In this document: positions 2,584-60,245 of the stretch, in pieces | How the letters are laid out: each line of letters begins with the position of its first letter | Numbering within the stretch: the stretch's first letter is position 1 | NCBI GenBank assembly: GCA_039111635.1 | Contig: JBCAQO010000014.1 | Coordinates: 1,488,001 to 1,552,000, forward strand | Source: Heterobasidion occidentale | Taxonomy: Eukaryota; Basidiomycota; Agaricomycetes; Russulales; Bondarzewiaceae | Length of the DNA stretch: 64,000 nt | Reading direction: 5' to 3' | Program-made: the position numbers and the translations under genes | Notes under the pieces: generated by a model | Told to the model about the DNA's origin: nothing | Seen by the model: the letters and a program-made list of their open reading frames with translations, nothing else | Databases searched by the model: none

Positions 2584-3788
2584 GAAAAATCCTCCGCCAG
2601 GTCCACCAGCATCTCTTTGGCCTTGGCCTCCCCTACTTCTTGGAAGAGCGCTCGGACGCCATTAGTATCACTGACGGGTCCATTTCTTCGTCGTCCGTTA
2701 GGCGGTACGTAGCGCTCTCCATTGCTCTGGCGTGATCCTCCCCTTCTCGCGGAAGGGTCCTCACGTTCCACCGAATTACCAGGTTGTGATACCCGACGGT
2801 GGTGGCTATGAGAACTCCCCTCCTCCAGTCCTCGATGAAGTCCCGCATCGTTTCCTAGCGGGGGTTCTTGCTCGTCTTCATCCTCCATGTCTGCAGCGCG
2901 AGTTCGTCTACCTCCTCCGCCCATTGGCTTGCGCGGATTTCCTCGAGACGGGGGAACGCCTCTGCGAGTGGAACGGAAGTCAGATGCCCAATGCCCTAGC
3001 TTCCCACAGTTAAAACAACGAGTGGTAAGCTTGCCATCATAAGTGCGCTTCTGGCGAGCGGCATCTCTTTTTCGTGAGGCGTCAATGTTCATGTCGACTA
3101 CCTGGTTGTTCATTCTGCGAGGAGCGGTGGTAGAGTTGTAACGACGAGCTGGTTGGAGGTGAAAGCGATTGAGGAAATCGCTTCGGAATAAGGTGGAGTT
3201 GGCGAGGATCGCCTTTTCACTTCGGGCTCTCAGGCGTCCGTCTATTTCACAGGCAGTGTTGACCCAGTCTTGGATTGTGTCCTTCGGCGGTGTTTCTTTG
3301 TCATAGATTTTGTCCATGACCCTCGGATCAAGCCCCCTCTGGAAGTAAGGAACTTGTTCCTTGTCGGTGATGTCGGCGTCGGCGGCTATAAGGATGAATT
3401 GGTTTGAATATTCATCCACCGTCATCTTCCCCTGAGAGAAAGACATGAGGGCGCTTCGGGCCTTGTCCGTGAGGTTTGTTTCCTTGAACTGGAGTTTAAA
3501 CCTGGCAAGGAAGTCGTCCCAAGTTCCTACGGTCTTGGGCGGGGTCGCCCCTACTGTCTTCTTTAGGAAACTTTCCGCCCATACGCCGGCCGTTCCATAT
3601 CTCATGCAAGAGAGAGCGAGGGAAACCTTGTCTGTATCCGTCTTGTATCGGTCCGATTCTGCTGTAAAAAGGAGGAGGCAATTCATGATGAATTTCTGTG
3701 ATTGTGTTCGGTCTCCCTCGAAGTTATCAGGGAGTTTGAGCTTGCCCCTTCCCGATGATACGGGTGGGTCTGTAGGATTTGTCGACAT
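2580..3788 (-). CDS. gag: Gag of copy A (402 aa, frame intact)
   Basis: Structural capsid/nucleocapsid protein of the retroelement. From the first ATG (MSTNPTDPP...) the frame stays open for 402 codons. The capsid-like part covers about residues 20-190. A single CCHC zinc knuckle lies near residue 255, but its last Cys is replaced by Phe (CFNCGKLGHW-ASDF), so zinc binding is doubtful. The C-terminal third is Arg/Gly/Pro-rich and basic. The frame ends in TCT TGA, with pol beginning in the -1 frame at that point. Copy B has the same protein with a 1-nt deletion and a different knuckle mutation. Confidence 0.88.
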   Translation of the reverse strand: MSTNPTDPPVSSGRGKLKLPDNFEGDRTQSQKFIMNCLLLFTAESDRYKTDTDKVSLALSCMRYGTAGVWAESFLKKTVGATPPKTVGTWDDFLARFKLQFKETNLTDKARSALMSFSQGKMTVDEYSNQFILIAADADITDKEQVPYFQRGLDPRVMDKIYDKETPPKDTIQDWVNTACEIDGRLRARSEKAILANSTLFRSDFLNRFHLQPARRYNSTTAPRRMNNQVVDMNIDASRKRDAARQKRTYDGKLTTRCFNCGKLGHWASDFRSTRRGVPPSRGNPRKPMGGGGRRTRAADMEDEDEQEPPLGNDAGLHRGLEEGSSHSHHRRVSQPGNSVEREDPSARRGGSRQSNGERYVPPNGRRRNGPVSDTNGVRALFQEVGEAKAKEMLVDLAEDFS

Positions 3789-4247
3789 AATGTTTCGGGT
3801 GTTGATCGGTGTTTGGATATCCGAGGATTCGGACTCGGATGTTCCTTCTTCTTCCTCCGATGTGTCCGGGATTTCCGGTTCAGGGTTCCTGTACTGGGGT
3901 GGCTCTACCCAGTCTTCTGCTATTTCGTCCCAAGCCCACTCAGCTTCTGTTTCGTCTTCTCTTGTGAAGAAGTATCGTCCTTCTCGATACGAGCAGTTAT
4001 CAAAGTTTGGGGGTGCTGGCCGATTGGTGTCGGAGTAATACCAGCGGTTTTCTCTTTGATGGATAGGACAATTATTCTGTCGAAGTTGGTTATGGGTTCG
4101 TCTAGTGCCTGGTGGGAATCCTAGGCCTAGGTCTTGCTCCAGGGTGTGTGAAGTAACTCTCTTCGGTGGGGGTCTATGCCACCGATGAGGGTTGTGAGAA
4201 AGAGTGTGGCAGCAAGCAGAGTGTGGTGCAAGGTAGGGGCAAAAGCG

Positions 4248-4257
4248 AGTCTATTCT
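4248..4257 (-). promoter_or_regulatory. Primer-binding site of copy A (self-priming type)
   Basis: Two bases (CT) after the LTR comes AGAATAGACT, the exact reverse complement of AGTCTATTCT at 4465-4456 in the LTR, about 30 bp downstream of the TATA motif. The geometry equals that in copies B, C and D. Confidence 0.75.
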
Positions 4258-4259
4258 AG

Positions 4260-4880
4260 TGTTACGAACTGCTCGTTCAGTAACCCAAGAGTAACAGGTT
4301 CTTCCCTAGGTCGCACAATGGACTGAGTGGTGGACGAAGTCTCGACTGTATCAGGTAACGATACAGGAGGGAATAGTGATTGGCTCTAAGAGTCCTGTAT
4401 GCGTAGATACAGGGGGAACAAAGAGGTTCGTATTCAAAGATACGAATGAACGAAGAGAATAGACTGAAGATCCTCAGCCTATTCTATGGGCCTTATATAC
4501 TGTATAGGGTATAGGGTAAGAGTCCGTGTGCTTCTCCAGGTTTCCATCCTAGGAGAGCTGTGGTCGCCGTCTCTCTCAGCCGGTGCCTACTCTTGTACTT
4601 CTCTAGTTGCACTGATCCATCATGGTGCGACGAGGTGCTTACCCATAAGCCCTAAGCCCATGGCATGTGAATGCCTCTCTTATTACTGTGTGAACTCTGT
4701 GAGCCTCGTGTCCCTCCAATATAGCCTCTACCGATGTCTTGAAGAACCATCGGTCTTGTCGGCTCCTAAGGACACGCCGAATACCTTAGTGTACGCTCCG
4801 TAGTGGAGCCGCCTAGCATGTGATGCTTGATCCATTGGTTAGACCGACCCCGAAGGGCCCCGATTGGTCAAGTCATAATA
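4260..4880 (-). repeat. 5' LTR of copy A (621 bp)
   Basis: The inner end TAACA and a decayed outer end (TATTAT where copy B has TGTTAT) bound a sequence homologous to the 588-bp LTR of copy B. It contains a TATA motif (TATATAAG, about 4499-4492 on the minus strand) and the 10-mer AGTCTATTCT (4465-4456) that pairs with the primer site. Compared with copy B it has about 32 extra bases just downstream of that 10-mer, including a perfect hairpin TTCGTAT-N6-ATACGAA (4427-4446). Confidence 0.9.
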
Positions 4881-9518: not shown

Positions 9519-9904
9519 CTTTCCAAGAGCTGTTGCCATTCATCAGAAAGTTTGAGGAGTTCTGCCTTCAGCATCTCACGCATGGTGGGAATGACGCTCG
9601 CCTCCCATTCTATTTCTGCCCCTGATGCATGCCCCTTCTTCAATGTCTTGCATGATGGCCCAAGGGCAATAGATCAGGATTCATGATAGCAAGCATTGTG
9701 AAGACTTACCAATGTCGGTCTCATGAACATATCCAGGTTTTTCATGAAAAGATAGTTGAAGTGGAGAAGGTACAAGCCACAATCATACTGATTGGGTTGC
9801 ATGGGCACCTGACAAGGACATTCATTCAAGAATCATACATCATACACAACAAATGTGACCCACCTCAAACTGTTTTGCATGCGGTTTGAACAGAGGCATG
9901 ATAT
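9519..9904 (-). pseudogene. Ulp1-like SUMO protease gene, 3' part (catalytic Cys exon)
   Basis: C48-type cysteine protease, which removes SUMO or SUMO-like modifiers. Minus-strand pieces: 9904-9864 (reads IMPLFKPHAKQFE), intron 9863-9809, exon 9808-9710 (33 codons with VPMQPNQYDCGLYLLHFNY, the Gln and Cys of the catalytic site), intron 9709-9647, exon 9646-9519 (ends near LSDEWQQLLER), then a further donor. The 5' part lies at 20633-21961, on the other side of copy B. The codon series ATC AAT ATC ATG CCT is restored when copy B and one GATAT are removed, so the element split an exon. Confidence 0.85.
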
Positions 9905-10285
9905 TGTTATGACTTGACCGATCGGGGCCCTTCGCGGCCGTGTCTAACCAATGGATCAAGCATCACATGCTAGGCGGCTCCACTACGGAGCATACACCAA
10001 GGTATTTGGCATGTCCTTAGGAGCCGACAAGACCGATGGTTCTTCAAGACATCGGTAGAGGCTATATTGGAGGGACACGAGGCTCACGAGGTTCGCACAG
10101 AGATAAGAGAGGCATTCACATGCCATGGGCTTAGGGCTTATGGGTAAGCACCTCGTCGCACCATGATGGATCAGTGCGACTGGAGAAGTACAAGAGTAGG
10201 CACCGGCTGAGAGAGACGGCGACCACAGCTCTCCTAGGTGGGAACTAGGAGAAGCACACGGACTCTTACCCTATACCCCATACAG

Positions 10286-10320
10286 TATATAAAGCCCATA
10301 GAATAGGCTGAGGATCTTCA
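10286..10320 (+). promoter_or_regulatory. LTR promoter: TATA box and predicted transcript start
   Basis: TATATAAA at 10286-10293. The 10-mer AGTCTATTCT begins at 10320, 34 bp downstream. Because it is complementary to the primer site, 10320 is the inferred first base of the transcript, as in Tf1, where the mRNA 5' end is the primer. The start site is inferred, not measured. Confidence 0.65.
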
Positions 10321-10338
10321 GTCTATTCTCTTCGTTCC

Positions 10339-10406
10339 CCTGTATCTACGCATACAGGATTCTTAGAGCCAATTATTATCCCCTCCTGTATCATCGCCTG
10401 ATACAG
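10339..10406 (+). other. Two perfect hairpins in R/U5 of the LTR
   Basis: CCTGTAT-N6-ATACAGG (10339-10358) and CTGTATCA-N5-TGATACAG (10386-10406). They lie between the predicted 5' end and the primer site. Copy A has an additional hairpin of the same size class. A structured U5 is known to matter for Tf1 self-priming; a similar role here is inference. Confidence 0.7.
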
Positions 10407-10494
10407 TCGAGACTTCGCCCACCACTCAGTCCTCTGTGCGACCTAGGGAAGAACCTGTTACTCTTGGGTTACTGAACAAGCAGTTCGTAACACT

Positions 10495-10504
10495 AGAATA
10501 GACT
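10495..10504 (+). promoter_or_regulatory. Primer-binding site of copy B (self-priming type)
   Basis: AGAATAGACT begins two bases (CT) after the LTR end and is the exact reverse complement of AGTCTATTCT at 10320-10329, the predicted mRNA 5' end. No resemblance to a tRNA 3' end (which would be complementary to CCA) is seen. Confidence 0.75.
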
Positions 10505-10963: not shown

Positions 10964-12171
10964 ATGTCGACAAATCCTACAGACCCCCCCGTCTCGTCGG
11001 GAAGGGGCAAGCTCAAACTCCCTGATAACTTCGAGGGAGACCGAACACAATCACAGAAATTCATCATGAATTGCCTCCTCCTTTTTACAGCAGAATCGGA
11101 CCGATACAAGACGGATACAGACAAGGTTTCCCTCGCTCTCTCTTGCATGAGATATGGAACGGCCGGCGTATGGGCGGAAAGTTTCCTAAAGAAGACAGTA
11201 GGGCGACCCCGCCCAAGACCGTAGGAACTTGGGACGACTTCCTTGCCAGGTTTAAACTCCAGTTCAAGGAAACAAACCTCACGGACAAGGCCCGAAGCGC
11301 CCTCATGTCTTTCTCTCAGGGGAAGATGACGGTGGATGAATATTCAAACCAATTCATCCTTATAGCCGCCGACGCCGACATCACCGACAAGGAACAAGTT
11401 CCTTACTTCCAGAGGGGGCTTGATCCGAGGGTCATGGACAAAATCTATGACAAAGAAACACCGCCGAAGGACACAATCCAAGACTGGGTCAACACTGCCT
11501 GTGAAATAGACGGACGCCTGAGAGCCCGAAGTGAAAAGGCGATCCTCGCCAACTCCACCTCCTTCCGAAGCGACTTCCTCAACCGCTTTCACCTCCAACC
11601 AGCTCGTCGCTACAACTCCACCACCGCTCCTCGCAGAATGAACAACCAGGTAGTCAACATGGACATCGACGCCTCCCAAAAAAGAGATGCTGCTCGCCAG
11701 AAGCGCACTTATGATGGCAAGCCTACCACTCGTTATTTCAACTGTGGGAAGCTAGGGCATTGGGCGTCTGACTGCCGTTCCCCTCGCAGAGGCGTTCCCC
11801 CGCCTCGAGGAAATCCGCGCAAGCCGATGGGCGGAGGAGGTAGACGAACTCGCGCTGCAGACGTGGAGGATGAAGACGAGCAAGAATCCCCGGTGGGAAA
11901 CGATGCGCGACTACATCGAGGACTGGAGGAGGGGAGTTCTCATGGCCACCACCGTCAGGTACCACAACCTGGTAATTCGGTGGAACGTGAGGACCCTTCC
12001 GCGAGAAGGGGAGGATCACGCCAGAGCAATGGAGAGCGCTACGTACCGCCTAACGGACGACGAAGAAACGGACCCGTCAGTGATACTAATGGCGTCCGAG
12101 CACTCTTCCAAGAAGTAGGGGAGGCCAAGGCCAAAGAGATGCTGGTGGACCTGGCGGAGGATTTTTCTTGA
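10964..12171 (+). pseudogene. gag: Gag of copy B (1-nt frameshift)
   Basis: Homologue of the 402-aa Gag of copy A. The frame starting at 10964 breaks near 11201-11203, where GGGG of copy A is GGG, and continues in the next frame to TGA at 12169-12171. Capsid region first, then one zinc knuckle near 11733-11775 whose first Cys is Tyr (YFNCGKLGHWASDC), then an Arg/Gly-rich tail. The knuckle mutation differs from that of copy A, so the ancestral form was presumably intact CCHC. As sequenced it cannot give full Gag. Confidence 0.9.
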
Positions 12172-15100
12172 CCTCTCCTTCTCCAGCCAAAGAGAGAGGG
12201 TCGAGGAAGCTCGAGTATGATTCCCCATCATGTATTCGAATCGGAGCAATGACCAGTCATATCATCACCCCCATTCGACTTGATGTGCGATTATCAACTC
12301 GAGGAAGAAGCGCTGGAGCCAGGGCCGCCATCGACTCAGCATGCGAATGGATTCTGGTAAACGAGAAGTGGGTAGAGAAGCATAACCTCCCCACCTATCC
12401 TTTAAACCGCCCCATCCGCGTTCGCAACGTCGATGACACCATTAACAAAGCAGGCCTCATACGACGAGGCCTAGACGCGAATCTCACCGTCAAGGATAGA
12501 CGAGGAAGAACCCACACCAAACGCGTCCAGATGTTCATCACCAACCTAGGAAAAGACGACATGCTCCTAGGAACGGATTGGTTAAAATACCACGACCCCT
12601 CCATCGGGTGGAGGCGCCGTGAGGTATGCTTTGATCGATGCCCCAGAGATTGCCAACAACCATATGGGTTTACCAAGGCAAGGGAAGAGCCTACCAAGAA
12701 GGCATGGCTAGCTAAACTACGCGGCGACAAGATTCCCCAGCGGATGAAGCCGCATCTTGTCTCAGAACCGGTAGGACCTTCGTGGACTTGGACTAAAGAA
12801 CAATGGGACCAAGTACCAGCGAAGGAATGGAAAACTCGGTTCATGGAGCTACTCGAGCACAAATCCCGACAACACAAGGCTCGGAAGTGGCTCGAAGAGC
12901 AAGTGACCGAAAGGAAGGAATGCCGGCAAGCTCAACGAGAGGCAGCCAAGAGCAAATCCTCGAGAAAAGTCGCTAAAGAAGTGCAAACACCGTTTGACTC
13001 CTCCGCAATGGATAGCGCAGGAGAACCTGTCATTAGGAAGGTAGCTCCAGAACCCTCGGGGTTTGCAAGCTTTGACGAAGACCTGGAGGAAGAAATCGAC
13101 ACCACCGACTTGAAAGGCCGGGTGCCGACAGAATATCATTCTTACCTCGACATCTTCAGCGAACGACGATCGCAGAGGCTCCCCCATCATACAATATGGG
13201 ACCACGCGATAAACCTCAAACCATCTTTTGTACCCCAGGCCCCGCGGATATTTCCTCTGAGCCCGTAAAAGCACGATGAGTTAGGGAAGTTCGTCAAGGA
13301 GCACCTTTCCAGAGGAACAATACGTCGGTCAACAGCACATAGCGCAGCCTCTTTCTTTTTCGTAAGCGAGAAAGATGGGAAGCTCCGTCCAGTACAAGAC
13401 TATCGTCACCTTAACGAACACACCATTCGAGATGTCACCCCCCTGCCATTAATCCAAGAACTATTGGATATTATTAAAGGCGCAACCGTGTTCTCGAAAC
13501 TCGATGTTCGGTGGGGATATAACAACGTGCGCATCAAGAAAGGAGACGAATCCAAAGCGGCCTTCGTCACACCCTTGGGGCTCTTTGAACCTACAGTAAT
13601 GTTCTTTGGGCTCTGCAATTCCCCAGGGACCTTCCAAGCCATGATGAACATGATCTTCCAGGAACTCATCTTGGCTCGGAAAATAGCGGTATATATGGAC
13701 GACATCCTCATCTTCACGAAGACCACAGCAGAACATATTGTGATTCTTCGGCGAGTCCTCCAAATCCTGCGCGACAACGATCTTTACCTCAAACCAGAGA
13801 AATGCGAATTCCACAAGGAAAAGCTAAACTACCTTGGGTACACGATCTCGAAAGACCACGTCGCTATGGAAGACTCGAAAATTGAAGCTATCCAGGAATG
13901 GCCCACCCCGTGCACAGTCCACGACATCCGCTCTTTCTTAGGCCTAGGGAACTTTTACCGACGATTCATTGACAAGTTCTCTTTGATCACTCGACCCCTG
14001 CATGACCTCACGAAGAAAGATACAAGATGGAACTGGACCACGGAGTGTCAACGGGTGTTCGATCGACTGAAGAAAGCCTTCATCAGTCAACCCGTCCTGT
14101 TATACCCTGACCCGATGCGCCCCTACCGGCTCGTCACCGATGCTTCCCTCGTGGCATACGGCGCAGTCCTCTTACAGGAAGGAGCTGATAACGACTGGCA
14201 CCCTGTTGCATACCTCTCGGGATCGTTCTCGCCGGCTGAATGGAATTACGACGTACATGATCGCGAACTCCTCGCCATCATCAAGGCACTGGAGCACTGG
14301 AAACACTACCTCGAAGGCGCTAGACACCCCTTTGAGGTCTGGACGGACCACAAAAATCTAGAACACTTTCAGACCGCGCGCGACTTATCAAGGCAACAAG
14401 CACGCTGGAGTCTGTTTTTGTCTCGATTTGACTTCCAGCTCAGTTACAAAGCTGGGACTACTAATCATGCCGATGCTCTGTCCAGGCGTCCAGACCTTAG
14501 TAAGGGGGTGGAATCTGATAACAAGGCACAGACTCTACTCCCATCCAGACTTTTCACCGAGTCCAGCGAAACTCTGGTAGAGCCAAGCAAAGGCATACAC
14601 GTCAAAGCAACGGAACTTGTATCCTCGGACACCCTCTCCCTTATTCGACACTCGCGCTCGGAACGCGACTTGCTAGTCGACGTCGCCCTAAAGAAATTGC
14701 TAGAGAAAGGACCGAATGCAATGAAGGGCGACCTAGGAAAATGGACACATGAAGATGGCATCACAAGACGCGACGGTTACATTTGTGTTCCAAAGGACGA
14801 CCTCCTCCGACGAACAATTGTCAAAACACACCATGACACTATGGCTACAGGACACCCAGGCCGAGCAAAGACCTTGGAATTGGTGCAGTGCCATTATTGG
14901 TGGTCAAGCATGACCAAGTTCGTACACCAATATGTGGATGGATGCGCAGTCTGCCAATCCACCAAGAACCTGCCCCACAGGATCCATCCACCGATCCAAC
15001 CACTGGAAACCACGAACGCCCCTTGGCGCTTCATCTCCACCGACTTCGTAACAGACCTCCCGGAAAGCAGAGGCTACGACTCGATAAACGTGGTGGTCGA

Positions 15101-16103
15101 TCAAGGCCTGTCAAAAGGAATAGTCATAACCCCGTGCAAAAAGACAATCACGGCCGAAGAAACTACGACGCTCTTCCAGGACAATGTGTTCAAGCGATAT
15201 GGTTTACCGACCAAGGTGGTGTCCGACAGAGGTCCTCAATTTGCGGCAAAATTCACAAGGGAACTATGGAAAGGAATGGGAATCACCCCTGCCCTCAGCA
15301 CGGCTTATCACCCCCAAACGGACGGAGAAACGGAACGGGTAAACCAAGAGATCAAGCAATTCTTGCGAGTGTTTTGCAATTACCACCAAGATAATTGGGT
15401 GGACTTGATCCCCTTCACAGAATTCTCCCACAACACCCGGAAGCACTCCGCCACTGGAAAGTCACCGTTTGAGGTCCTTTATGGGTTCAACCCACCATAT
15501 TCGGTCGACTCAGCTCTGGAGACCAAGGTGCCCGCAGTAACTGAACGCTTACAGCTAATCAAGGAAGTCCAAGAAGAGGCGGCTGCAAGTCTACAGATAG
15601 CAGCGCAGCACGCCAAGGACCGGGATCTGCACAGGAAACTCCCGCAGTGGGAAGTAGGAACCCAAGTTTGGTTAGAAGGAACCCACATTCGGACGACCCA
15701 TCCGAAATTCAAGCTGGCACCTAGGCGCTATGGCCCCTTTTCAGTGACCGAAAGAATCGGCCCTCTGGCTTATCGGCTGAAAATACCTGAAACGTGGAAG
15801 ATACACCCGGTATTTCATGCCTCCATACTCATGGAGTATCACGAGACAGAGGCCCACGGAAGGAACTTCCCCAGACCTGCCCCAGAGATCTTGAATGAAG
15901 AAGAACACTACGAAGTGGAGGCCATTCTAGATTCAAGACGTCAGGGACGAGGGACCAAGTACCTTGTCAAGTGGGTCGGATACTCCGAAGCCGATAACAC
16001 CTGGGAACCCTTTGCCCTCCTCAAAGATACGGCCGACGAGGCGCTTCGTGAATTCCACGAAAACTACCCAGACAAACCCCGACCTGCGGCGATTAAGCTT
16101 TAG
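12168..16103 (+). pseudogene. pol: Pol polyprotein of copy B (PR-RT-RNase H-IN-chromodomain) with one nonsense codon
   Basis: One frame runs from the gag overlap (TTTTTCTTGA, pol in -1 relative to gag) to 16103, interrupted only by TAA at 13266-13268 (GAA in the consensus with copy A). Order: aspartic protease (DSAC, then GTDWL near 12570); RT with YMDD at about 13695-13706; RNase H starting VTDASLVAYGAVL (about 14135); integrase HHCC zinc finger (14825-14970); catalytic core with STDFVTDL (15038), VSDRGPQF (15221) and TDGETERVNQ (15320); C-terminal chromodomain (about 15900-16060, KYLVKWVGYSEADNTWEP). The 879 codons after the last upstream ATG (13464-16103) are fully open. The chromodomain assigns it to the chromoviruses, whose integration is guided to modified histones. 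Confidence 0.95.
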
Positions 16104-16160
16104 AAAGATATAAAAAGGAGAGACCCCCATCCTTTCAAAAGCAAGAATCCTCCCCAGTAC

Positions 16161-17482
16161 ATGTCCGACCACTCCTCCCTTGATTACTCCCCTGGACGTG
16201 CCATGCTCATTGATGACGGAACTACCTCCTCCCCTTCAAGAAACCCCTCGCCAGACATCATTCTGGCCGTGGCCAACCCCGACACTGGACGCCCTAGCCG
16301 AAGCAGCCGCCCAGCAACTCCAGAAGGAATTCCCATACCAATCGTTGTCCACCAAACCGCGCTCACCGTCGAAGATCGAACGGGTTCCCGAACCTCACCA
16401 CGGTTTGAGGGAGCTCATGACGAGCACGATGAAGGACGTCAAGAAGAAGGAAGACCTACTCCGCCAACGCCTCCGCGACCGACGACAGCGTTGGCTCAAA
16501 GAGACACAAGGCAGGAAACGGGAAGCGGAAGAAGACCAAGAAACTCTGCGGACCTGGCATCGCCTACAGTTGCTGAGGCAGGTGTACAAGAACCAGCAAC
16601 GGCTGGTACATCAGCTGCCAGGACCAGAGGGCCCCCTACCAGTAGTCGAGATCTGCACCCCGGAGAGTTGGAAGGGCTAGGAGACGCGCTGCTCCAACGC
16701 ACCACCATCTCCGCGGGCAACCAGGGAGCGAGAGCGACGACGTACCCAGACGCCTTGCTGACGCGAGCGACCAGGTCAGGCTTCTGGCCTATGCAGATGA
16801 TCATAGGGCCGCCTCCTGGTATGCCCGAGGAAATAATGGGGCTTACGCCTTACTCATTCATCCGGATGAGATCTCCTCCTTCATCAACCTGGAGCTCCTA
16901 CCCGCCCTCATCTCGCGCACCAACACAAGACACTCCTCCCACGCCCATCCCGTCCGGATCGATCCATTCCGTGTCCAACCATGGAGCGAAGCCAGCAGGA
17001 CGATACCGGCTACAAACAGTCGAGACGCATCCACCCAGACAGAATATGTCTGGACCACAGTCCAACGACAGGCATGAAGGGACCGAGAGGCCCTACCTCC
17101 CATATCGGCAGGACAATCCACCGGGCAGGACGCAGGAGGCAGCAATGAGGAACACCCTCCAAGGTACAGGAGGAATGAGGGACGAGGGAACCAAAGGGCG
17201 AGGACAACCCCTCAACCCAGGCGAAGCAGTCCTAGAAGAACTCAACCAAGAGATTCACCGACTCCAAACCGTCCTCGAGATAATCGAATTGAAGGAGCGC
17301 ATCCACACATTGGTAGAAGAACTCCAATCCGCCAGCGTCCGACTCAGCGAACTACTTCCTGGACTCGAGCGGAACTAGACGCCTGGGACGAGGTCGAAGA
17401 CGGAAATTACGACGACATCGACCCCTATTACAGGCCAGATGAAGGATACGGGGACTACGGAGACATTGGCGGAGGATACTAA
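16161..17482 (+). pseudogene. Accessory ORF3 of copy B, decayed, coding signal in three frames
   Basis: Unknown protein encoded between pol and the 3' LTR. The longest ATG frame (16161-17378, 405 codons) is mostly low-complexity and is probably not the true product. The most protein-like stretches are: frame of 16161 for the first 35 codons; frame of 16180 for 16290-16680 (charged, helical, with LRELMTSTMKDVKKKEDLL); and the frame of 16679 for 16679-17482 (LLAYADDHRAASWYARGNN, then an Arg-rich segment and an acidic Tyr/Gly tail ending at TAA 17482). That last frame has one internal TGA near 17066 (CGA to TGA would be a CpG transition). I read this as one ORF of about 435 codons broken by two indels and one nonsense change. 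Confidence 0.55.
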
Positions 17483-17581
17483 ACCAGGGAGTGGAGGAAC
17501 CCCGGGTTTTTAACATGATGACGGAGAGGAAAGGACCTCCCGCATCACAGGTACCGGTTTCACGCACAGGACGCCGGAACG

Positions 17582-19195
17582 AACGTCCTGCATGACGTTA
17601 AACTGTGAAAAGATAAGAAGGCAGGGGAAGTACCTGACCATTTTGCGTTGCAGCCCTCTGGTCTCAAGACAAGGACAAGCATCTAACACTCTCGTTGTCA
17701 AGAGGTATTCTGACAAGCGAATCGGGCGTCCCGCTTGGATCCCCAGTTTTACAGGGCCCTTTCCGCATTAGGAGGCCCTTAGGATTCACAACATAACCTT
17801 GGTACTGGTACATGAATGATGCATGAATATTGGTGGGAAATCATGTTGCATGTTCGCCGTTGGGGAACAGTGGACCAACCTCGCTGTCAAGGTCTGACAG
17901 GTGTCTTGGACGTCCCACTTTGGATCTCCGGTTTTACAGGGTCGTTTCCGCATTAGGGGGCCCTATCTGCGATGCAGGAACTAATGGCCGCACTCCATTA
18001 GTAACCCAAAACGGAGAAATTACATCCGCAACGATGTAAAACTACGAAAGGCTTGGTCCGCAATGACGATAAACTAGTTACCGTCCGGAACGACGTTAAA
18101 GCTACCAAGACCCTCGGAGCGTGGTTGTATTCTGGCAGACGGTGGAAGGGAGGGCCTCCACCGTTGCGGAACCCTGCCGACTAGGTCGAGGCGCTTCCAT
18201 ATTCCATACGCCCTACAGTAAAAGAATATGGGGTCGACACGGTTCAATTCCGTGCGAGGGGTTTGGGGACATGGAGCGGGTTGTCAGTCTTCCGACAAGG
18301 CCACGACTACTCCATGGCGCTCCCATTCTACCCTTGAAGTCCGAAGCAAGGATTCCGCTTCAAGGGCCAGTCAAGAGGCAACTGGGACCGTGCCTCGTGT
18401 TTAGGCGTCCGCAATGACGGTAAACTACGGACGCCCTCCACGGCGTTAAACTGGGATTGCCCTTTCCTTTACAGGGCCATGAGCAGTGTCCAAACATGAG
18501 ATATGTTTCGGCATTGCTGCGTCCGCAAAGACGTTAAACTACCACTCCTTTCAGCATAGGAGATGTTGATCGACATCGTTGTTGACGCCACGATGTTGAT
18601 CTAGTCCGCAATGACGATAAACTATTATCCCTCGTTCTAGGGACCGTATTGGAGCTGGAATTACCGCTTCCAGCTGCAATAGTCCGAAATGACCTTAAAC
18701 TACCCTCACCCCGGAGGATTAAATCTATCGAGGCTCGGGAGGTTCAAGCCAGACGATAGCGGACGTCCGCAATGACTATAAACTAGTTGCCGTCCTTCAT
18801 GACGATAAACTGAGCTGCCCTTCTGTCTACAGGGCCATGTGAGTTGTGTCAAAATAGGCTTAAAGTCTATTCTCGCAACTCTAGAAGTTATCCGGTTTGA
18901 TATAGTATAAACCGTCACCATCTTACCTCAATGGGAACCCTGTCAAGATGGCTGTACTTGGTCTAGGGCCCTATGTGCATCACCGATGAATGTTCCGGCG
19001 CACAGAAAAGGTCTACCATCTTGTTTACAGGTACTCCTACGTTGGAAGATGGATAGGTCCGCAACGACCTTGGTTTAAACTAGCAGGGCAGTCTGCAACG
19101 ACTTATGCATAAACTAGCCTCAGTCCGCGATGACTTAAGGATAAACTAGCCGACGTCCGCAAAGACGCAAAACTACGGACGTCCGGCACGACGTT
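17582..19195 (+). repeat. Array of about 16 hexaloop hairpins in the 3' region of copy B
   Basis: Each unit is a 3-6 bp stem, a loop of exactly six bases (consensus CGCAAY) and, 1-9 bases later, AAAC, usually followed by TA or TG. Loop-flanking GAC starts are near 17594, 18033 (GATGTA form), 18065, 18092, 18416, 18442 (GGCGT form), 18530, 18613, 18691, 18774, 18801, 19066, 19100, 19132, 19164 and 19190. Stems vary together: AACGTC/GACGTT, TACATC/GATGTA, ACGCC/GGCGT, AGGTC/GACCT, AGTC/GACT, CGTC/GACG, plain GTC/GAC. Two units also lie in larger perfect 8-bp stems (18404-18411 with 18428-18435; and 19152-19159 with 19176-19183). Pairing kept while sequence changes argues for RNA structure. Confidence 0.8.
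17725..17965 (+). repeat. Duplicated segment with TTTTACAGGG and a 6-bp stem
   Basis: Two related segments of about 65 bp (about 17727-17792 and 17904-17967) share TTTTACAGGG, TTTCCGCATTAG and GGCCCT. In the first, AGGGCC pairs with GGCCCT. In the second, AGGGTC still pairs with GGCCCT through one G-U wobble. Related ACAGGGCC phrases recur near 18472 and 18830. They also resemble 3' splice sites (pyrimidine tract then CAG/G). Confidence 0.5.
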
Positions 19196-19199
19196 AAAA

Positions 19200-20031
19200 C
19201 TACCAGGACATACCTTACGCTGACCCCGCAATAATTACCGTCAAGGTGGATACCATGGTCTATTCAAGAGACCATGGGGTTCAAAGTCTATTCTTCAAAG
19301 TCCTTACCTCGTGTTCAATACGCGGAGCGCTGCTACATGCTCGCTCCCTTGTGAAAAACAAACTCTGGACGAACACTCAATCTCTAACCAGGACGGGCCA
19401 CCGTATGGGGCTGACAGAGTTAGGGATCTTCAAAGGGGTCTTGCCGGACTCAAAACAAGTCAAGAGCCATGTTCACTCTTGATAGGTTGGTGGGCCTAAG
19501 CCTTAGTAAAGCAATCAACCCACACACCTGGAGTCCCCCTCGATACCGGAGATCAAGGAGATGAAGATCTATCCTGGAAACACTGAAGCATGGCCTTCGG
19601 TATTTTGAAGAAGAACGACACACACCCATCCACAGACGAGTTTCTATTTCATCTTATAATCATTCGCACGACACCTTTCTGCATCGTCGCCAGAGAAAAT
19701 ACTGGCTCATCAAACCTACCAGGGAGCCCTGGTCGAGTAGCTGCCTATCGACTCTAGGAGTGTACTCACACAAAACGTACGGTGAAGGAAGAACACCGAG
19801 GGCAACGCAATATTGTGGCTGATATTGCTACGAGCCTGGATCAAACAGCTCAACGGAGAAGGAAAACTCCTAGGCGTTGTAAACGACGTAGGTCGGTCCT
19901 CGCCCCAGAAAACGCAGTGATATTGGGAAAACGCATCCCAATCTATTTGACGACCAGAAAGTAATTGCACGTGGAATGACGATGAAGCTCGTTTCTGCTC
20001 AAGCGAGTAGTCCCCTCAGGAGTTGGGACCT
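19200..20031 (+). other. Distal 3' region of copy B, unassigned
   Basis: Between the hairpin array and the polypurine tract. Contains only short ORFs (up to 84 codons) without recognisable features. Near 19255-19275 ACCATGGTCTATTC is followed by an inverted GACCATGG, a short hairpin. Confidence 0.4.
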
Positions 20032-20041
20032 AGAAAGGGGG
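20032..20041 (+). other. Polypurine tract of copy B
   Basis: AGAAAGGGGG, three bases before the 3' LTR. It is the expected plus-strand primer site. The same decamer at the same distance is present in copy D. Confidence 0.85.
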
Positions 20042-20044
20042 TAA

Positions 20045-20632
20045 TGTTATGACTTGACCGATCGGGGCCCTTCGCGGCCGTGTCTAACCAATGGATCAAG
20101 CATCACATGCTAGGCGGCTCCACTACGGAGCATACACCAAGGTATTTGGCATGTCCTTAGGAGCCGACAAGACCGATGGTTCTTCAAGACATCGGTAGAG
20201 GCTATATTGGAGGGACACGAGGCTCACGAGGTTCGCACAGAGATAAGAGAGGCATTCACATGCCATGGGCTTAGGGCTTATGGGTAAGCACCTCGTCGCA
20301 CCATGATGGATCAGTGCGACTGGAGAAGTACAAGAGTAGGCACCGGCTGAGAGAGACGGCGACCACAGCTCTCCTAGGTGGGAACTAGGAGAAGCACACG
20401 GACTCTTACCCTATACCCCATACAGTATATAAAGCCCATAGAATAGGCTGAGGATCTTCAGTCTATTCTCTTCGTTCCCCTGTATCTACGCATACAGGAT
20501 TCTTAGAGCCAATTATTATCCCCTCCTGTATCATCGCCTGATACAGTCGAGACTTCGCCCACCACTCAGTCCTCTGTGCGACCTAGGGAAGAACCTGTTA
20601 CTCTTGGGTTACTGAACGAGCAGTTCGTAACA
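20045..20632 (+). repeat. 3' LTR of copy B (588 bp)
   Basis: Identical to the 5' LTR except at 20618 (G against A). It is followed by the target duplication GATAT (20633-20637). Confidence 0.98.
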
Positions 20633-21961
20633 GATATTGATTCGGGCCTTGACCTCCTCACATAGATATCCAGCTAAGTGCCAGCCTGTATTCCGATGCT
20701 TTCAGTTGAGAGAATCAAATATAAAGATTTGTGTACTGGCAAAGATCAATTAGGAGTAACAGTGAAATGATCATCATCGTTATGGCTCACATGTGGACCC
20801 AACTTGATGTAGTCGAGCCTTCGCTATCCAACAACATAGTCCATCCAAGTCGGCGCGCCAAATCAACGGCAAAAACAGTATTGTATTTAGCTGGCGGGCG
20901 CTCAAATAGGCCTCGTGGATGGCTTATGACTGCCAAGTACCAATGCTGTTCCGCCCTATCAGTCATGTCTCAGCAATGTAGTCACAGAACTAAGAAGCTT
21001 GCTTGCACTCATCATGTATAGGGACAATCAAGAACTTCTTGCTGAAGAAATTGACTCTATTTGTATGACTTTTGGCTGCTTCATAGCCAGCTCGTCTACA
21101 AAAAAAAATAAGCGATCTTCACAGCGCTCCATGAGATGTAACTCACAATTGCATATAGAAAAATGTGCTATATATGTGTACCTGGTCCATAGCAACAGAA
21201 TCCTTCACCCTTGACTTGGCATACCACAATCTTTGTGTTCATATGAGCGAGCACTCGGGTTTTGGATAAAATCAAACACTTACTTTAAACCAAGATTGAT
21301 GAGATTATCATTTAAGAATCTGCGAGGTTTTAGTCGCTCCATATCCTGTGGTCCGATATCAATCGCACCATGGCCAACAAAGGGGTAAGTCAAAATACTG
21401 TAGAAAGTCGAGAATAAGTGACAATTTGTATGTATTCATTGATACATACATCATGCGAGTGTCCGATCGAGCAGATGAGTCAGATTGCTTTGGCAAAGGT
21501 ACTTTCATGGGCAGCTCTACTTCAACATCATCATCTTCAGACGTGAGAGAACTGAGTGGAGAGGATGGAGGAATAGGTAATGCCTCTGAGACCGTTGGCA
21601 ACAAAGCATCCTCTAGAGCTGATGCTGGAGTATTTGAGGAATTGAAGAGAGGTGAGGGCGCTGGCACGGTTCCTGTGCCAGATCGTGGAAAACCAGTGTC
21701 AAGAGATGATGCTTGTGTGCAAGATGTTTTGGTTGGCTTTGAGCCAAGAGACAAAAGAGGCTTCGTTTTTGAGATATATTGTGGCGAGATTGTGTTCGAG
21801 GCTACCGCTATAGTTGAAGAATTTTTTGATTCATAGAAAGACTTCTGTCGGCGTACGGCAAATGTAGGATGCAAAGATGCTGCACTCTGTTGCAAGGGTC
21901 GTTCGGATTGTGTTGCATGTTTCCTATGGTATAATCTATATTGGCGGCGTATGGAAGGCAC
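20633..21961 (-). pseudogene. Ulp1-like SUMO protease gene, 5' and middle part
   Basis: Minus strand, reading down from 21961. A Ser/Pro-rich N-terminal exon (to 21450) is followed by a 52-bp intron and exon 21397-21284 with PFVGHGAIDIGPQDMERLKP and RRFLNDNLINLGLK (typical Ulp1 entry). Next come exons with RVNFFSKKFLIVPIHDE and QHWYLAVI (catalytic His, about 20941), then exon 20735-20633 with IFIFDSLN (catalytic Asp) and LAGYLCEEVKARIN, cut by copy B. The catalytic Cys exon is at 9808-9710. A TGA at 20704-20702, just after DSLN, is an additional nonsense change. Introns are about 50-75 bp and keep phase. The start codon is not settled: the first in-frame start here is GTG, and exons upstream of the solo LTR (for example 23048-22942) may belong. 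Confidence 0.85.
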
Positions 21962-50841: not shown

Positions 50842-52935
50842 CAGAACAGTGTGAGCTCACAATTTGATTCAACACCAAGTCGTCTGCGACGTCCTTACCC
50901 TATAAATCTAACCCGAGTCGCTTGAGGCGTCCTTACCTTGTAAAAACCCGAGCCGTCTGAGAGGCCCTTACCCTGTAAGCCAGACCCGAGTCGTCTGCGA
51001 CGTCCTGATCCGAGTCGTCTGCGACGTCGGCTCTCTGTGAACCCTCGGTGATGGCAGGACAGGTGAGCAGGAATTTGGTTGAGCAACAAGTCGTCTCAGA
51101 CGTCCTTACCCGGTAAGCCAGACCCGAGTCGTCTGCGACGTCCTGACCCGAGTCGTCTGCGACGTCGGCTCTCTGTGAACCCTGGGTGATGACAGAACAG
51201 GTGAGCAAGAATTTGGTTGAGTAACGAGTCGTCTCTGACGTCCTTACCCGGTAAGCAAGACCCGAGTCGTCTGCGACGTCCTGACCCGAGTCGTCTGCGA
51301 CGTCGGATCTCTGTGAACCCTGGGTGATGACAGAACAGGTGAGCAAGAATTTGGTTGAGTAACGAGTCGTCTCTGACGTCCTTACCCGGTAAGCAAGACC
51401 CGAGTCGTCTGCGACGTCCTGACCCGAGTCGTCTGCGACGTCGGCTCTCTGTGAACCCTGGGTGATGACAGAACAGGTGAGCAAGAATTTGGTTGAGTAA
51501 CGAGTCGTCTCTGACGTCCTTACCCGGTAAGCAAGACCCGAGTCGTCTGCGACGTCCTGACCCGAGTCGTCTGCGACGTCGGATCTCTGTGAACCCTGGG
51601 TGATGACAGAACAGGTGAGCAAGAATTTGGTTGAGTAACGAGTCGTCTCTGACGTCCTTACCCGGTAAGCAAGACCCGAGTCGTCTGCGACGTCCTGATC
51701 CGAGTCGTCTGCGACGTCGGCTCTCTGTGAGCCCTGGGTGATGGAAGAACAGGTGAGCAGGTATTTTGTTCAGCAAGAAGTCCGCTCAGGCGTCCTTACC
51801 CGGTAAGCCAGACCCAAGTCGTCTGCGACGTCTTTACCCTGTAAGTAAGCCTGCGCGAGTCGTCTGCGACGTCCTGACCCGAGTCGTCTGCGACGTCCTG
51901 ACCCGAGTCGTCTGCGACGTCGGATCTCTGTGAACCCTGGGTGATGACAGAACAGGTGAGCAAGAATTTGGTTGAGTAACGAGTCGTCTCTGACGTCCTT
52001 ACCCGGTAAGCAAGACCCGAGTCGTCTGCGACGTCCTGACCCGAGTCGTCTGCGACGTCGGATCTCTGTGAACCCTGGGTGATGGCAGAACAGGTGAGCA
52101 AGAATTTGGTTGAGTAACGAGTCGTCTCTGACGTCCTTACCCGGTAAGCAAGACCCGAGTCGTCTGCGACGTCCTGATCCGAGTCGTCTGCGACGTCGGC
52201 TCTCTGTGAGCCCTGGGTGATGGAAGAACAGGTGAGCAGGCATTTTGTTCAGCAAGAAGTCCGCTCAGACGTCCTTACCCGGTAAGCCAGACCCAAGTCG
52301 TCTGCGACGTCTTTACCCTGTAAGTAAGCCTGCGCGAGTCGTCTGCGACGTCCTGACCCGAGTCGTCTGCGACGTCGGATCTCTGTGAACCCTGGGTGAT
52401 GACAGAACAGGTGAGCAAGAATTTGGTTGAGTAACGAGTCGTCTCTGACGTCCTTACCCGGTAAGCAAGACCCGAGTCGTCTGCGACGTCCTGATCCGAG
52501 TCGTCTGCGACGTCGGCTCTCTGTGAGCCCTGGGTGATGGAAGAACAGGTGAGCAGGCATTTTGTTCAGCAAGAAGTCCGCTCAGACGTCCTTACCCGGT
52601 AAGCCAGACCCAAGTCGTCTGCGACGTCTTTGCCCTGTAAGTAAGCCTGCGCGAGTCGTCTGCGACGTCCTGACCCGAGTCGTCTGCGACGTCGACCCTC
52701 TGTGAAGCCTGGGTGATGAAAGAACAGCGTGAGCAAGACTTTGGTTCGGCAGCAAGTTGTCTGGGACATCCTTACCCGGTAAGCTAGACCCGAGTCGTCT
52801 GCGACGTCCGCGCTTTGTAAACCCTGGGTGACTTCAGAAGACTGTCAGCTCACACATTGATTTAGCACCAAGTCGTTTGTGTTGTCCTTACACTCTAAGT
52901 CTAACCCGAGTCGTCCGAGTCGTCCTTACAATGCT
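50842..52935. repeat. 138-bp satellite array with higher-order variation
   Basis: The period is 138 bp (phrase TGGGTGATG at 51183, 51321, 51459, 51597), with some longer variant units around 51730-51960 and 52200-52700. Each unit holds two copies of CGAGTCGTCTGCGACGTC and one variant with CGTCTCTGACG. Outer units at both ends are more diverged (shared flank with GAGCTCAC and CACCAAGTCGT), as expected when array edges decay. 138 is a multiple of three, so long open frames through it are not evidence of coding. Confidence 0.95.
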
Positions 52936-59650: not shown

Positions 59651-59654
59651 ATAG

Positions 59655-60245
59655 CTACCTTGCCTGCCTCCTTGCCTGCCTCCTTGCCTGCCTCCTCATG
59701 TGCCTCCTCATGTGCCTCCTCATGTGCCTCCTCACGTGCCTTCTCACGTGCCTCCTCACGTGCCTCCTCATGTGCCTTTTCGGATGCCTCCTCGCCTGCC
59801 TCCTCACGTGCCTCCTCACGTGCCTTCTCACCTGACTCCTCACCTGCCTTCTCACCTGACTCCTCACCTAGTCTCTCACTTGGCTCCTCACCTGGCCTCT
59901 CACCTAGCCTCTCACCTGGTCTCTCACCTGCCTCCTTACCTGGCCTCTCACCTAGCCTCTCGCCTGCCTCCTCACCTAGCCTCTCACCTGGCCTCTCACC
60001 TGCCTCCTCACCTGGCCTCTCGCCTGCCTCCTCACCTAGCCTCTCACCTGCCTCCTCACCTGGCCTCTCACCTGCCTCCTCACCTGGCCTCTCACCTGCC
60101 TCCTCACCTAGCCTCTCACCTGCCTCCTCACCTGGCCTCTCACCTGCCTCCTCACCTAGCCTCTCACCTGCCTCCTCACCTGGCCTCTCACCTGCCTCCT
60201 CACCTAGCCCTCACCTAGCCTCTCACCTAGCTCCTCACCTACCTA
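59655..60245. repeat. CT-rich minisatellite (12/24-bp units)
   Basis: Repeats such as CCTGGCCTCTCACCTGCCTC with alternating CCTCCTCACCTG and CCTCTCACCTAG forms, beginning as CCTTGCCTG and CCTCATGTG forms on the left. Strong strand asymmetry (almost no G runs). The 268-codon Ser/Pro/Leu frame across it follows from unit lengths divisible by three. Confidence 0.92.

Follow-up and report, generated by a model that had tools for sequence, protein, structure and literature searches.

In a Ty3/gypsy element of Heterobasidion occidentale, here called copy B, 16 small hairpin units lie at positions 17585-19202 of the window (the whole 64-kb stretch of DNA that was analysed), upstream of the polypurine tract (PPT) and the 3′ LTR. 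Their letters indicate that the array is probably a row of tandem coremin-type Xrn1-resistant RNAs (xrRNA_C) that would stall 5′-3′ decay of the element RNA. Xrn1 is the main cytoplasmic decay enzyme, and we infer both that it is stalled by the array RNA and that this stalling has a role in the life cycle of the element.

The element and its array

Copy B is a young chromovirus with the RT-RNase H-integrase order, a C-terminal chromodomain, LTRs and a TSD (GATAT at 9900-9904 and 20633-20637). Its LTR pair is 99.7% identical over 591 aligned bases, with two mismatches, of which one falls immediately beyond the LTR, and the family probably numbers several hundred copies. The main parts of copy B are as follows.

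9905..10492 (+): 5′ LTR, ends taken directly from the sequence
10495..10504 (+): putative PBS for self-priming, the complement of AGTCTATTCT, which lies close to where the RNA presumably starts (10320, 20460)
11029..12171 (+): gag reading frame, stop to stop, with Retrotrans_gag and CCHC
13269..16103 (+): pol reading frame, stop to stop, with RT, RNase H, integrase, Tf2-1-like SH3 and chromodomain
16161..17378 (+): ORF3 as open in copy B, no Pfam match
20032..20044 (+): putative polypurine tract AGAAAGGGGGTAA, read from the sequence
20045..20632 (+): 3′ LTR, from comparison of the LTR pair

The putative PBS points to Tf1-type self-priming of the element; the 3′ region contains additional copies of the primer-like 10-mer, conserved no more than average windows. 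The sequence-only reading of this DNA had called ORF3 decayed, in line with our finding that its frame in copy B departs after 16714 from four of the seven other copies compared, which carry 55 extra nt there. Searches with Pfam and PDB sequences returned no family for ORF3 or the array.

The hairpins first pointed out at 17582-17599, 18021-18038, 18431-18446, 19055-19070, 19090-19103 and 19179-19194 are present as they had been written, and the grammar proposed with them (a stem of at least three Watson–Crick (WC) pairs, a 6-nt loop and AAAC just after) recovers 16 units on the plus strand and 4 on the minus strand. Across 500 dinucleotide shuffles the same stem threshold gives on average 1.4 units and at most 6, against the 16 observed on the plus strand; requiring at least four WC pairs leaves 12 units against a shuffle maximum of 3, and at least five leaves 5 against a maximum of 2. 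A weight-matrix scan of the 64-kb window (threshold 14), on which the unit rows below are based, places 16 units in 17400-19300 and elsewhere only one on each strand. Throughout the assembly, the unit pattern with one mismatch allowed has 1,415 matches, versus 1 for the reversed pattern.

17585..17605 (+): u1, GTC CTGCAT GAC GT TAAACTG; T at loop position 2 departs from the published consensus
18024..18044 (+): u2, ATC CGCAAC GAT GT AAAACTA (YGNNAC)
18056..18076 (+): u3, CGCAAT loop (YGNNAD); hairpin of the next unit can act as hp2
18083..18103 (+): u4, CGGAAC loop, tail TAAAGCT; dyad partner of u3
18407..18427 (+): u5, CGCAAT loop (YGNNAD); hp2 is the u6 hairpin, 18431-18446
18433..18453 (+): u6, GCC CTCCAC GGC; dyad partner of u5
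18459..18477 (+): hp2/HpA after u6 (GCCCT/AGGGC)
18482..18518 (+): HpB of module M2, position by offset from u6
18521..18541 (+): u7, CGCAAA loop (YGNNAD)
18545..18562 (+): hp2/HpA after u7 (CTCCT/AGGAG)
18569..18600 (+): HpB of module M1
18604..18624 (+): u8, CGCAAT loop (YGNNAD)
18628..18643 (+): hp2/HpA after u8 (TCCCT/AGGGA)
18647..18681 (+): HpB of module M4; other copies have module M3 here or in addition
18682..18702 (+): u9, CGAAAT loop (YGNNAD)
18704..18717 (+): hp2/HpA after u9 (CCTC/GAGG)
18725..18759 (+): HpB of module M0, little varied
18765..18785 (+): u10, CGCAAT loop (YGNNAD); hp2 is the u11 hairpin
18792..18812 (+): u11, CTTCAT loop; dyad partner of u10
18817..18835 (+): hp2/HpA after u11 (GCCCT/AGGGC)
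18841..18881 (+): second hairpin after u11 (GAGTTG/CAACTC)
19057..19082 (+): u12, 7-nt gap type, CGCAAC loop
19091..19116 (+): u13, 7-nt gap type, TGCAAC loop
19123..19148 (+): u14, 7-nt gap type, CGCGAT loop (YGNNAD)
19155..19175 (+): u15, CGCAAA loop (YGNNAD), tail AAAACTA; hp2 is the u16 hairpin, 19179-19194
19181..19202 (+): u16, CGGCAC loop, GTT then AAAACTA

The loops first described as prevalent (CGCAAT, CGCAAC or CGCAAA) occur in 8 of the 16 units. The nearby AAAC is likewise real, but its supposedly free distance of 1-9 bases is not: in most units the gap from GAC to UAAAC is 2 or 7 (among 1,312 units of 83 copies, 2 in 1,010, 7 in 234 and other values in 68). Nor are the units identical tandem duplicates, as their spacers of 30-110 nt form 10 clusters at 72% identity; some stretches of the array region resemble one another at about 75-77%. 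From copy to copy, modules are exchanged, missing or duplicated, and 18 orders occur among the 83. Twenty of 35 chosen places were included as further copies, the partial matches C12:1525398 and C39:13776 were left out of the copy set, and L002-L008 were left out of the alignments as duplicates of L009-L015. Rfam gave no match to 16000-20700 at E ≤ 1, and a literature search that did not cover xrRNAs in retrotransposons, phages or RNase J brought up, among the papers listed, no description of such an array.

Match to xrRNA_C and constraint on letters

According to the text of PMC10520033, xrRNA_C comprises a first hairpin (hp1) with a GUC/GAC stem of 3-4 bp and a YGAD (4 nt) or YGNNAD (6 nt) loop, a spacer whose letters are crucial, and a second hairpin (hp2) that is required but free in sequence. 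In the loop, G as second base and A as fifth are needed, and G as sixth is weaker; the hexaloops CGCAAU and CGAAAU tested resistant, and a loop-end C was nonresistant in a benyvirus context, with natural exceptions (PMC10520033). The unit found here, GUC, hexaloop, GAC, 2 nt, UAAACUA and a free-sequence second hairpin, has the same build. In copy B the stem is GTC/GAC in 14 of 16 units (ATC/GAT and GCC/GGC in the others), extended in 12 of the 16 by an outer WC pair that is C-G in 9, and 794 of 1,011 unit instances in 63 copies have GTC/GAC. Eight of the 16 loops are YGNNAD and five YGNNAC, while u1, u6 and u11 carry T at position 2 and so have no loop G; over all copies, 568 of 1,299 units are YGNNAD, 424 end in C and 307 are of other types. 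A spacer with the conserved UAAACUA letters directly follows hp1 in the gap-2 units, as in the published RNA, but not in u12-u14, whose 7-nt gap has no counterpart in the text of PMC10520033. A hairpin of at least 4 bp starts within 9 nt of the tail in 12 of the 16 units, and by this test none adjoins the tail of u1, u2, u4 or u16. Over copies, 643 of 1,299 units have the next unit within 20 nt downstream, and 425 of the remaining 656 have a hairpin of at least 4 bp, against 223 of 656 random positions, a third of which pass. The hp2 hairpins after many units differ in sequence, and HpA after u6 is 98% WC over 63 copies, with more than one WC type in three of its five pairs. All 16 units stand on the plus strand, the one that is transcribed, between ORF3 and the PPT. 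The fit to the published consensus is good but incomplete, and mixed for the loop.

Across 63 aligned copies, constraint is strong at U2, C3, loop position 5 A, A11 and the tail AAAC-TA. On the 63-copy tree, over the 16 window sites, observed against expected substitutions are 3/31 at t1, 2/27 at t2, 3/27 at t3 (8 against 84 for t1-t3, corrected for trinucleotide context), 4/27 at t5, 2/28 at loop position 5, 4/20.5 at C3 and 4/32 at A11. Key tail, loop and stem positions stand at about a tenth to a quarter of expectation and gap and flank positions above it, in a test free of the letter bias of the weight matrix. Units were also collected from 83 copies with a matrix that favours consensus letters and is neutral at loop position 6; the 569 distinct ones have C or T at loop position 1 throughout, G at position 2 in 421, A at position 5 in 568 and G at position 6 in only 7; U2 is kept in 545, C3 in 563, A11 in 542 and each A of the tail AAA in 557-564. 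The tail letters AAACU also fit the DRACH rule (m6A).

Covariation and recurrence in other DNA

The sequence-only reading had argued for selection on RNA structure from stems that change while pairing is kept, but covariation of the hexaloop stems stays within what a phylogeny-aware null produces. Among 150 distinct gap-2 units (taken from 229 distinct units), 23 stem cells are double-changed versus 19.7 in the tree-based null, where 99 of 300 simulations reach 23; a plain shuffle, which ignores relatedness, gives 12.1 (0/500). Paired stem cells are in excess (85.2% versus 67.1%, 1/300), which conserved letters would lead one to expect. In the stems of u7-u9 covariation does not exceed the tree null, unit stems show no preference for G.U over A.C (65 versus 91 events), and at G1-C12, with both sides CpG-exposed, wobble and A.C are level at 12:12. 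Double changes at G1-C12 outside u2 (8 versus 2.9 expected) are a weak signal beside unpaired controls of 5 versus 2.2 and 1 versus 2.5. Covariation of the outer stem pair (-1/+1) was considered and rejected: 391 of 569 are paired against 260 expected overall, but by class the counts are 261 against 253 of 411 (gap-2) and 104 against 81 of 105 (gap-7), so that the overall excess is largely a class effect.

The check across copies did, however, succeed for a hairpin between units, absent from the earlier description, with 74 double-changed cells versus 4.6 in the tree null (0/300). HpB of module M3, present in other copies, covaries strongly. HpA after u7 has 12 double-changed cells versus 1.5 (0/300), in 2 pairs versus 0.75 (reached in 40/300), and these changes are perhaps one event. 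HpB of M1 has 16 versus 6.1 cells (10/300) in 3 versus 2.1 pairs (92/300), and HpA after u8, which offers no testable variation, has 0 double changes versus 0.2 expected. Selection on a repeated RNA-type unit is supported by letter constraint and by at least one clearly covarying alternating hairpin, whereas the reason first given for it, compensating hexaloop stems, is not borne out by the copies. Plain column covariation (G-test with APC, 1,784 columns, 63 copies) was set aside in favour of per-module tests, since the exchange of entire spacers creates linked blocks that swamp its signal. An excess of G.U over A.C was also discarded as proof of the sense strand: it is 128:49 on plus-strand folds but 49:43 for the HpA/HpB pairs common to both strands, which therefore does not prove sense RNA to be the selected strand, and all listed helices together give 228 G.U versus 245 A.C events.

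Phage-type viral contigs also carry the combination of hp1 and spacer, far more often than controls do and with loops that follow the same grammar; an obvious second hairpin is mostly absent. With the loop left free, at least 120 viral loci match versus 22 for a scrambled-tail control, and loops are YGNNAN in 86 of 102 (31 contexts) versus 2 of 22 in the control; chance, assumed at first for 68 viral matches, was overturned by controls. A hairpin of at least 5 bp follows in 8 of 113 phage-type loci and one of at least 4 bp in 45 of 113 (controls, 5 of 22); hp2 is thus not evident and these loci may work differently. Rfam found no family at the motif sites of nine viral loci. The motif also occurs in 40 bacterial loci, a count made without a control.

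Proposed role, alternatives and known systems

The units would sit in the 3′ noncoding part of the genomic RNA of the element, each made of hp1 (GUC, six-base loop, GAC), the spacer NN-UAAACUA and an hp2 that would be supplied either by HpA, a hairpin dedicated to this, or by hp1 of the unit that follows. Host Xrn1 acting on decapped element RNA would stall just before an hp1, sixteen sites would give redundancy, and the stalls would produce stable, nested 3′ RNAs that retain both polypurine tract and 3′ U3-R end. The element might gain by protection of the template for reverse transcription, by occupation of Xrn1 or by a dulling of RNA silencing, and the longer HpB hairpins could be folded spacers against misfolding of neighbouring units.

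Binding of Gag or ORF3 protein, packaging, dimerization and RNA export had been suggested earlier; resistance to 5′-3′ decay appears better supported than any of these because of the match between the unit and coremin (xrRNA_C; PMC10520033), an RNA known to resist exonuclease. We regard as unlikely an array whose hairpins and exposed conserved sequence bind Gag or ORF3 protein for packaging or export: it would agree with the layout of the alfalfa mosaic virus (AMV) 3′ end (PMC9414508), with the arginine-rich stretch in the accessory ORF just upstream and with the predicted exposure of tail and hexaloop (probability of an unpaired 6-mer 0.36 and 0.34, versus 0.07 between units, although A-rich letters favour exposure anyway), yet it leaves unexplained both the near letter-by-letter match to xrRNA_C and a motif with the same loop rules in unrelated viral contigs. 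That the motif chiefly stops scanning ribosomes, or affects translation, rather than decay is improbable, for although xrRNA_C slows scanning ribosomes in vitro, the array lies 3′ of all frames seen, beyond cap-dependent scanning, which is the explanation given for 3′ placement in the text of PMC10520033. A set of neutral tandem repeats in which reverse transcriptase, by switching templates, has tidied palindromes and so mimicked compensation would suit the shuffled modules and have a parallel in the hypervariable tandem repeats of plant Ogre 3′ UTRs (PMC7004042), and template switching may add to the covariation of HpB; the depletion of substitutions at key positions and the recurrence of the motif in unrelated DNA make this account very improbable. 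Least probable of all is a DNA-level row of factor-binding sites, suggested by the GTC/GAC dyad and by the 12 Su(Hw) sites in the 5′ untranslated region of Drosophila gypsy (PMC2374998), since all 16 units point one way, HpB keeps pairing and not sequence, and the motif also turns up in phage-type DNA, where a common factor is unlikely.

We tentatively entertain, at somewhat below even chance, that xrRNA_C serves as a portable RNA device well beyond the RNA viruses: a row of about 16 units would be shuffled as cassettes at unit boundaries in the retrotransposon, its RNA decaying to nested protected 3′ fragments, while phages and their bacterial hosts would use hp1 and spacer with no fixed hp2 against RNase J, the bacterial 5′-3′ exonuclease. 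xrRNAs have been studied as tricks of RNA viruses; if our reading is true, a nuclear mobile element defends its own RNA against the chief cytoplasmic decay enzyme. More than 1,000 units from copies with a traceable history form a natural mutant library for the requirements of xrRNA_C, and the motif in phage-type DNA raises the question of whether the same fold stops RNase J. The many natural variants may also help toward a structure, none having been solved as of 2023 (PMC10520033).

Among known systems, the 3′ hairpin/AUGC array of AMV, which binds coat protein, is likewise a linear row of hairpins parted by short conserved sequence, but its motif differs (PMC9414508), and protein binding in the present element is putative. 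Plant Tat/Ogre elements likewise carry copy-variable tandem repeats between coding region and 3′ LTR (PMC7004042, citing Macas et al. 2009); there the repeats themselves are described as hypervariable, whereas in the present array constraint falls on the motif and variation on the spacers. The Su(Hw) insulator of Drosophila gypsy likewise gives a Ty3/gypsy element roughly a dozen degenerate sites, but these are bound as DNA, lie in a 5′ untranslated region that is AT-rich and involve no RNA structure (PMC2374998). With the xrRNA_C of beny-, cucumo-, hypo-, chryso- and other viruses (PMC10520033, PMC5869530) the array shares CGCAAU, the sense strand and a 3′ noncoding place. The legend of Fig. 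1 in PMC10520033 names some viruses with motif repeats, and its main text lacks the words "retrotransposon," "phage," "RNase J," "bacteria" and "tandem." Compared with these viral forms as described there, the array has sub-types with a loop-end C, T as second loop base or a gap of 7 nt, the hp1 of a following unit can serve as hp2, long hairpins fill the spacers, and some 16 units stand in tandem in one RNA, that of an LTR retrotransposon rather than an RNA virus.

The host element and its hairpin array

Copy B, a complete Ty3/gypsy chromovirus on contig C14 of the 45-Mb, 159-contig assembly, carries in its 3' region an array of short units, each typically consisting of a first hairpin, hp1 (GUC, hexaloop, GAC), a two-base gap and the tail UAAACUA. 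It encodes gag and a pol with RT, RNase H, integrase, Tf2-1-like SH3 and chromodomain; some 2.6 kb between ORF3 and the polypurine tract (PPT) are non-coding, and its LTRs show 2 mismatches in 591 aligned bases, one of these outside the LTR. The host group was taken as fungal from the element type. Copy B looks self-primed in the Tf1/Tj1 fashion (Tj1 as comparison element, PMC4600332): immediately internal to the 5' LTR, at 10495-10504, lies AGAATAGACT, the complement of AGTCTATTCT, which is located downstream of a TATA-like LTR stretch.

Features of copy B (window coordinates)
9905-10492 and 20045-20632: LTRs, target duplication GATAT
10320 and 20460: self-primer 10-mer AGTCTATTCT at the presumed RNA 5' end
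10495: complement of the 10-mer at the PBS
17585-19202, + strand: units u1-u16

Two extra self-primer-like copies lie in the 3' non-coding region (18864 and 19285), where AGTCTATTC is retained in 50/83 and 65/83 copies of the element, with 18 more at 19470. They could pair with the PBS; their conservation across the 83 copies is no higher than that of average windows. ORF3 (16104-17484) is an open frame of 476 aa in another copy, L003 (positions 3317-4744), with an arginine-rich stretch and, in its second half, a third-position bias (substitutions 71/48/162, L003 against seven other copies). A frame of 188-191 aa, likewise biased, overlaps its first half, perhaps as dual coding. At 16714, four copies contain a stretch of 55 bases that is missing from copy B and from three others. 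Pfam and PDB searches with ORF3 gave no match.

The hairpins listed by the sequence-only reading lie where it placed them, and their number is far above chance: 16 on the + strand and 4 on the - strand, against a shuffle mean of 1.4 and maximum of 6. Across the assembly, the 21-letter unit pattern with at most one mismatch gave 710 + 705 matches, and the same pattern read backwards 1 + 0. First-look candidates numbered 308 in the first search and 325 in a second one that started from a divergent copy. The 3' region was aligned for 83 copies: a 63-copy set (copy B, the 37 best matches of the first search and 25 places from the pattern list) and 20 copies from the divergent-copy search. Each carries 9 to 21 units. 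At 19057-19148, three consecutive units have a gap of 7 rather than 2 bases between GAC and UAAAC, a type that accounts for 234 of the 1,312 units in the 83 copies. Other, unrelated tandem arrays in the window lie at 50845-52925 (period of ~138 bases), 57873-59471 (~56/20) and 59599-60193 (~12).

Covariation and constraint

The sequence-only reading proposed that the stems change while pairing is kept. When copies were aligned and compared with a tree null, in which each branch's substitutions were replayed on the tree in 300 simulations, the hexaloop stems showed no covariation beyond that null. Double-changed cells numbered 2 versus 1.6 in alignment A1 (module M1, 58 sequences), 0 versus 0.1 in A2 (module M3, 43 distinct sequences) and 23 versus 19.7 among 150 units, a value reached by 99/300 simulations. 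A plain shuffle, which ignores relatedness, gave 23 versus 12.1 (0/500). The paired-cell share in the 150-unit set was 85.2% versus 67.1% (1/300), and was not above the tree null in A1 (61/300) or A2 (63/300).

Many units are separated by spacers that form modules of ~80 bases: the unit, then a short hairpin (HpA), then a longer one (HpB). In M3 HpB, both sides changed in 7 of 13 pairs, one of them A-U in 16 sequences, C-G in 13 and U-A in 12, and double-changed cells numbered 74 versus 27.9 in shuffles (0/500) and 4.6 under the tree null (0/300). This set comprises two alternative hairpins (in ~26 and ~17 sequences) whose columns were matched one to one in the alignment, so that for part of the signal the cell count exceeds the event count; several Watson-Crick types also occur inside one of the two. 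M1 HpA gave 12 cells versus 1.5 (0/300), but in only 2 pairs (40/300), and M1 HpB 16 versus 6.1 (10/300), in 3 pairs (92/300); A2 HpA showed no double change. The 5' side of HpA varies by module (GCCCT, CTCCT, TCCCT, CCTC), and whole modules have been doubled, reordered, gained and lost: the 83 copies show 18 different orders, of which the most frequent is shared by 25 copies. When 8 diverse copies were folded as a consensus, many windows of 18071-18788 had z-scores under -2 for both strands, as did sequence near 17455-17557 and 19442. Within the structured region are a T-arm-like sequence, CACGGTTCAATTCCGTG (18238-18254), for which an RNA family search found no match, and, just upstream, a conserved 8-bp hairpin (18197-18231).

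Constraint on the unit's letters is strong. For the 16 unit sites of the window, substitutions were mapped onto the 63-copy tree; the expected numbers come from columns outside the units, in that region, with matching trinucleotide context.

Substitutions observed/expected on the 63-copy tree
Tail: t1 3/30.6; t2 2/27.2; t3 3/26.6; t5 4/27.4
Loop: position 5 2/28.1; position 6 61/53.6
Stem: C3 4/20.5; U2 8/30.9; A11 4/31.9; G1 31/49; C12 28/61
Gap: 192/110

The weaker constraint at G1 and C12 is due mainly to CpG decay; without CpG exposure, the G-C pair is kept in 134/139 distinct units. At loop position 6, T, C and A are all common, yet G occurs in just 7 of 569 distinct units. The substitution pattern is similar on internal and terminal branches, as expected if rounds of replication drove the divergence of copies.

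The motif in viral and bacterial DNA

When viral contigs were searched for the unit pattern as a background check, 68 loci were found (70 matches in 30 contexts); the reversed pattern found 1, and a gap of 3-14 bases in place of 2 found 4. This rigidity of gap and orientation pointed to coremin, which blocks the exonuclease Xrn1 (PMC10520033, PMC5869530). The loop-free pattern GTC-N6-GACGTTAAACTA gave at least 120 loci, and a scrambled-tail control 22, with YGNNAN loops in 2/22. The 101 new loci had YGNNAN in 86 of 102 loops (3% expected by base counts), in 31 contexts without a common flank, most commonly CGAAAT (55); 78 of the 86 do not end in C. A four-base-loop version showed no enrichment for the loop rule in viral contigs (YGAD in 2/36 loci).

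Coremin-type hp1 plus spacer with YGNNAN loops
L071-L138 and L204-L304: viral contigs
L164-L203: bacterial genomes

In the phage-type contigs, for which two scans each gave ~30 unrelated contexts, CGAAAT and CGCAAT are the commonest loops. Of 40 viral matches listed, 36 have all forward frames interrupted by stops near the motif, and by eye many of 45 listed lie after tRNA-like or terminator-like sequence or ahead of gene starts. A hairpin adjoining the tail is not a rule in viral loci (at least 5 bp in 8/113, controls 1/22; at least 4 bp in 45/113 versus 5/22). Bacterial genomes gave 40 loci, against ~7 expected by letter-count arithmetic rather than a control scan; by record title 12 are from Lactobacillaceae, the rest mainly from Clostridia, streptococci and candidate-phylum bacteria. 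The viral contigs are probably those of tailed phages, and in such phage-type and bacterial DNA hp1 plus spacer may possibly act as a roadblock to RNase J.

Correspondence with coremin-type RNAs

The real and unusual array and the selection on an RNA-type feature proposed by the sequence-only reading are borne out; stem compensation, the signal it named, is not, and it missed the probable identity with xrRNA_C, the coremin-type Xrn1-resistant RNA. As described in PMC10520033, xrRNA_C consists of hp1, a spacer and a second hairpin, hp2, that "holds only structural conservation", with a loop of YGAD, or YGNNAD when six bases long. The same source reports resistance for hexaloops including CGCAAU, CGAAAU and others but not for CGAAAC, weaker resistance where loop positions 1 and 6 can close, and putative natural exceptions with a loop ending in C (CcCV1).

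Going by the activity reported there, Xrn1 would be expected to halt just before an active hp1 as it degrades decapped RNA of the element, and the 3' RNAs left behind would retain the 3' end together with the PPT. A series of sites would provide redundancy, a leaky site being backed up by the next, and the element might benefit because its template is protected, because Xrn1 is tied up or because silencing is suppressed.

The units of the element fit xrRNA_C as GUC-YGNNAN-GAC-NN-UAAACUA, the place of hp2 being taken by HpA or by the hp1 of the next unit. Loop, gap and hp2 all conform in u3, u5, u7, u8, u9, u10 and u15 (the last with AAAACUA), and u14 has a fitting loop with a gap of 7 bases. 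The loop ends in C in u2, u4, u12, u13 and u16 and has T at position 2 in u1, u6 and u11; u6 and u11 are second members of dyads, and their hairpin can act as hp2 for the first member. Judged by sequence, most units have the stem, the spacer, the hp2 and the location that suggest membership in xrRNA_C, and the outcome for the loop is mixed; the 7-base-gap units fall outside xrRNA_C as PMC10520033 describes it.
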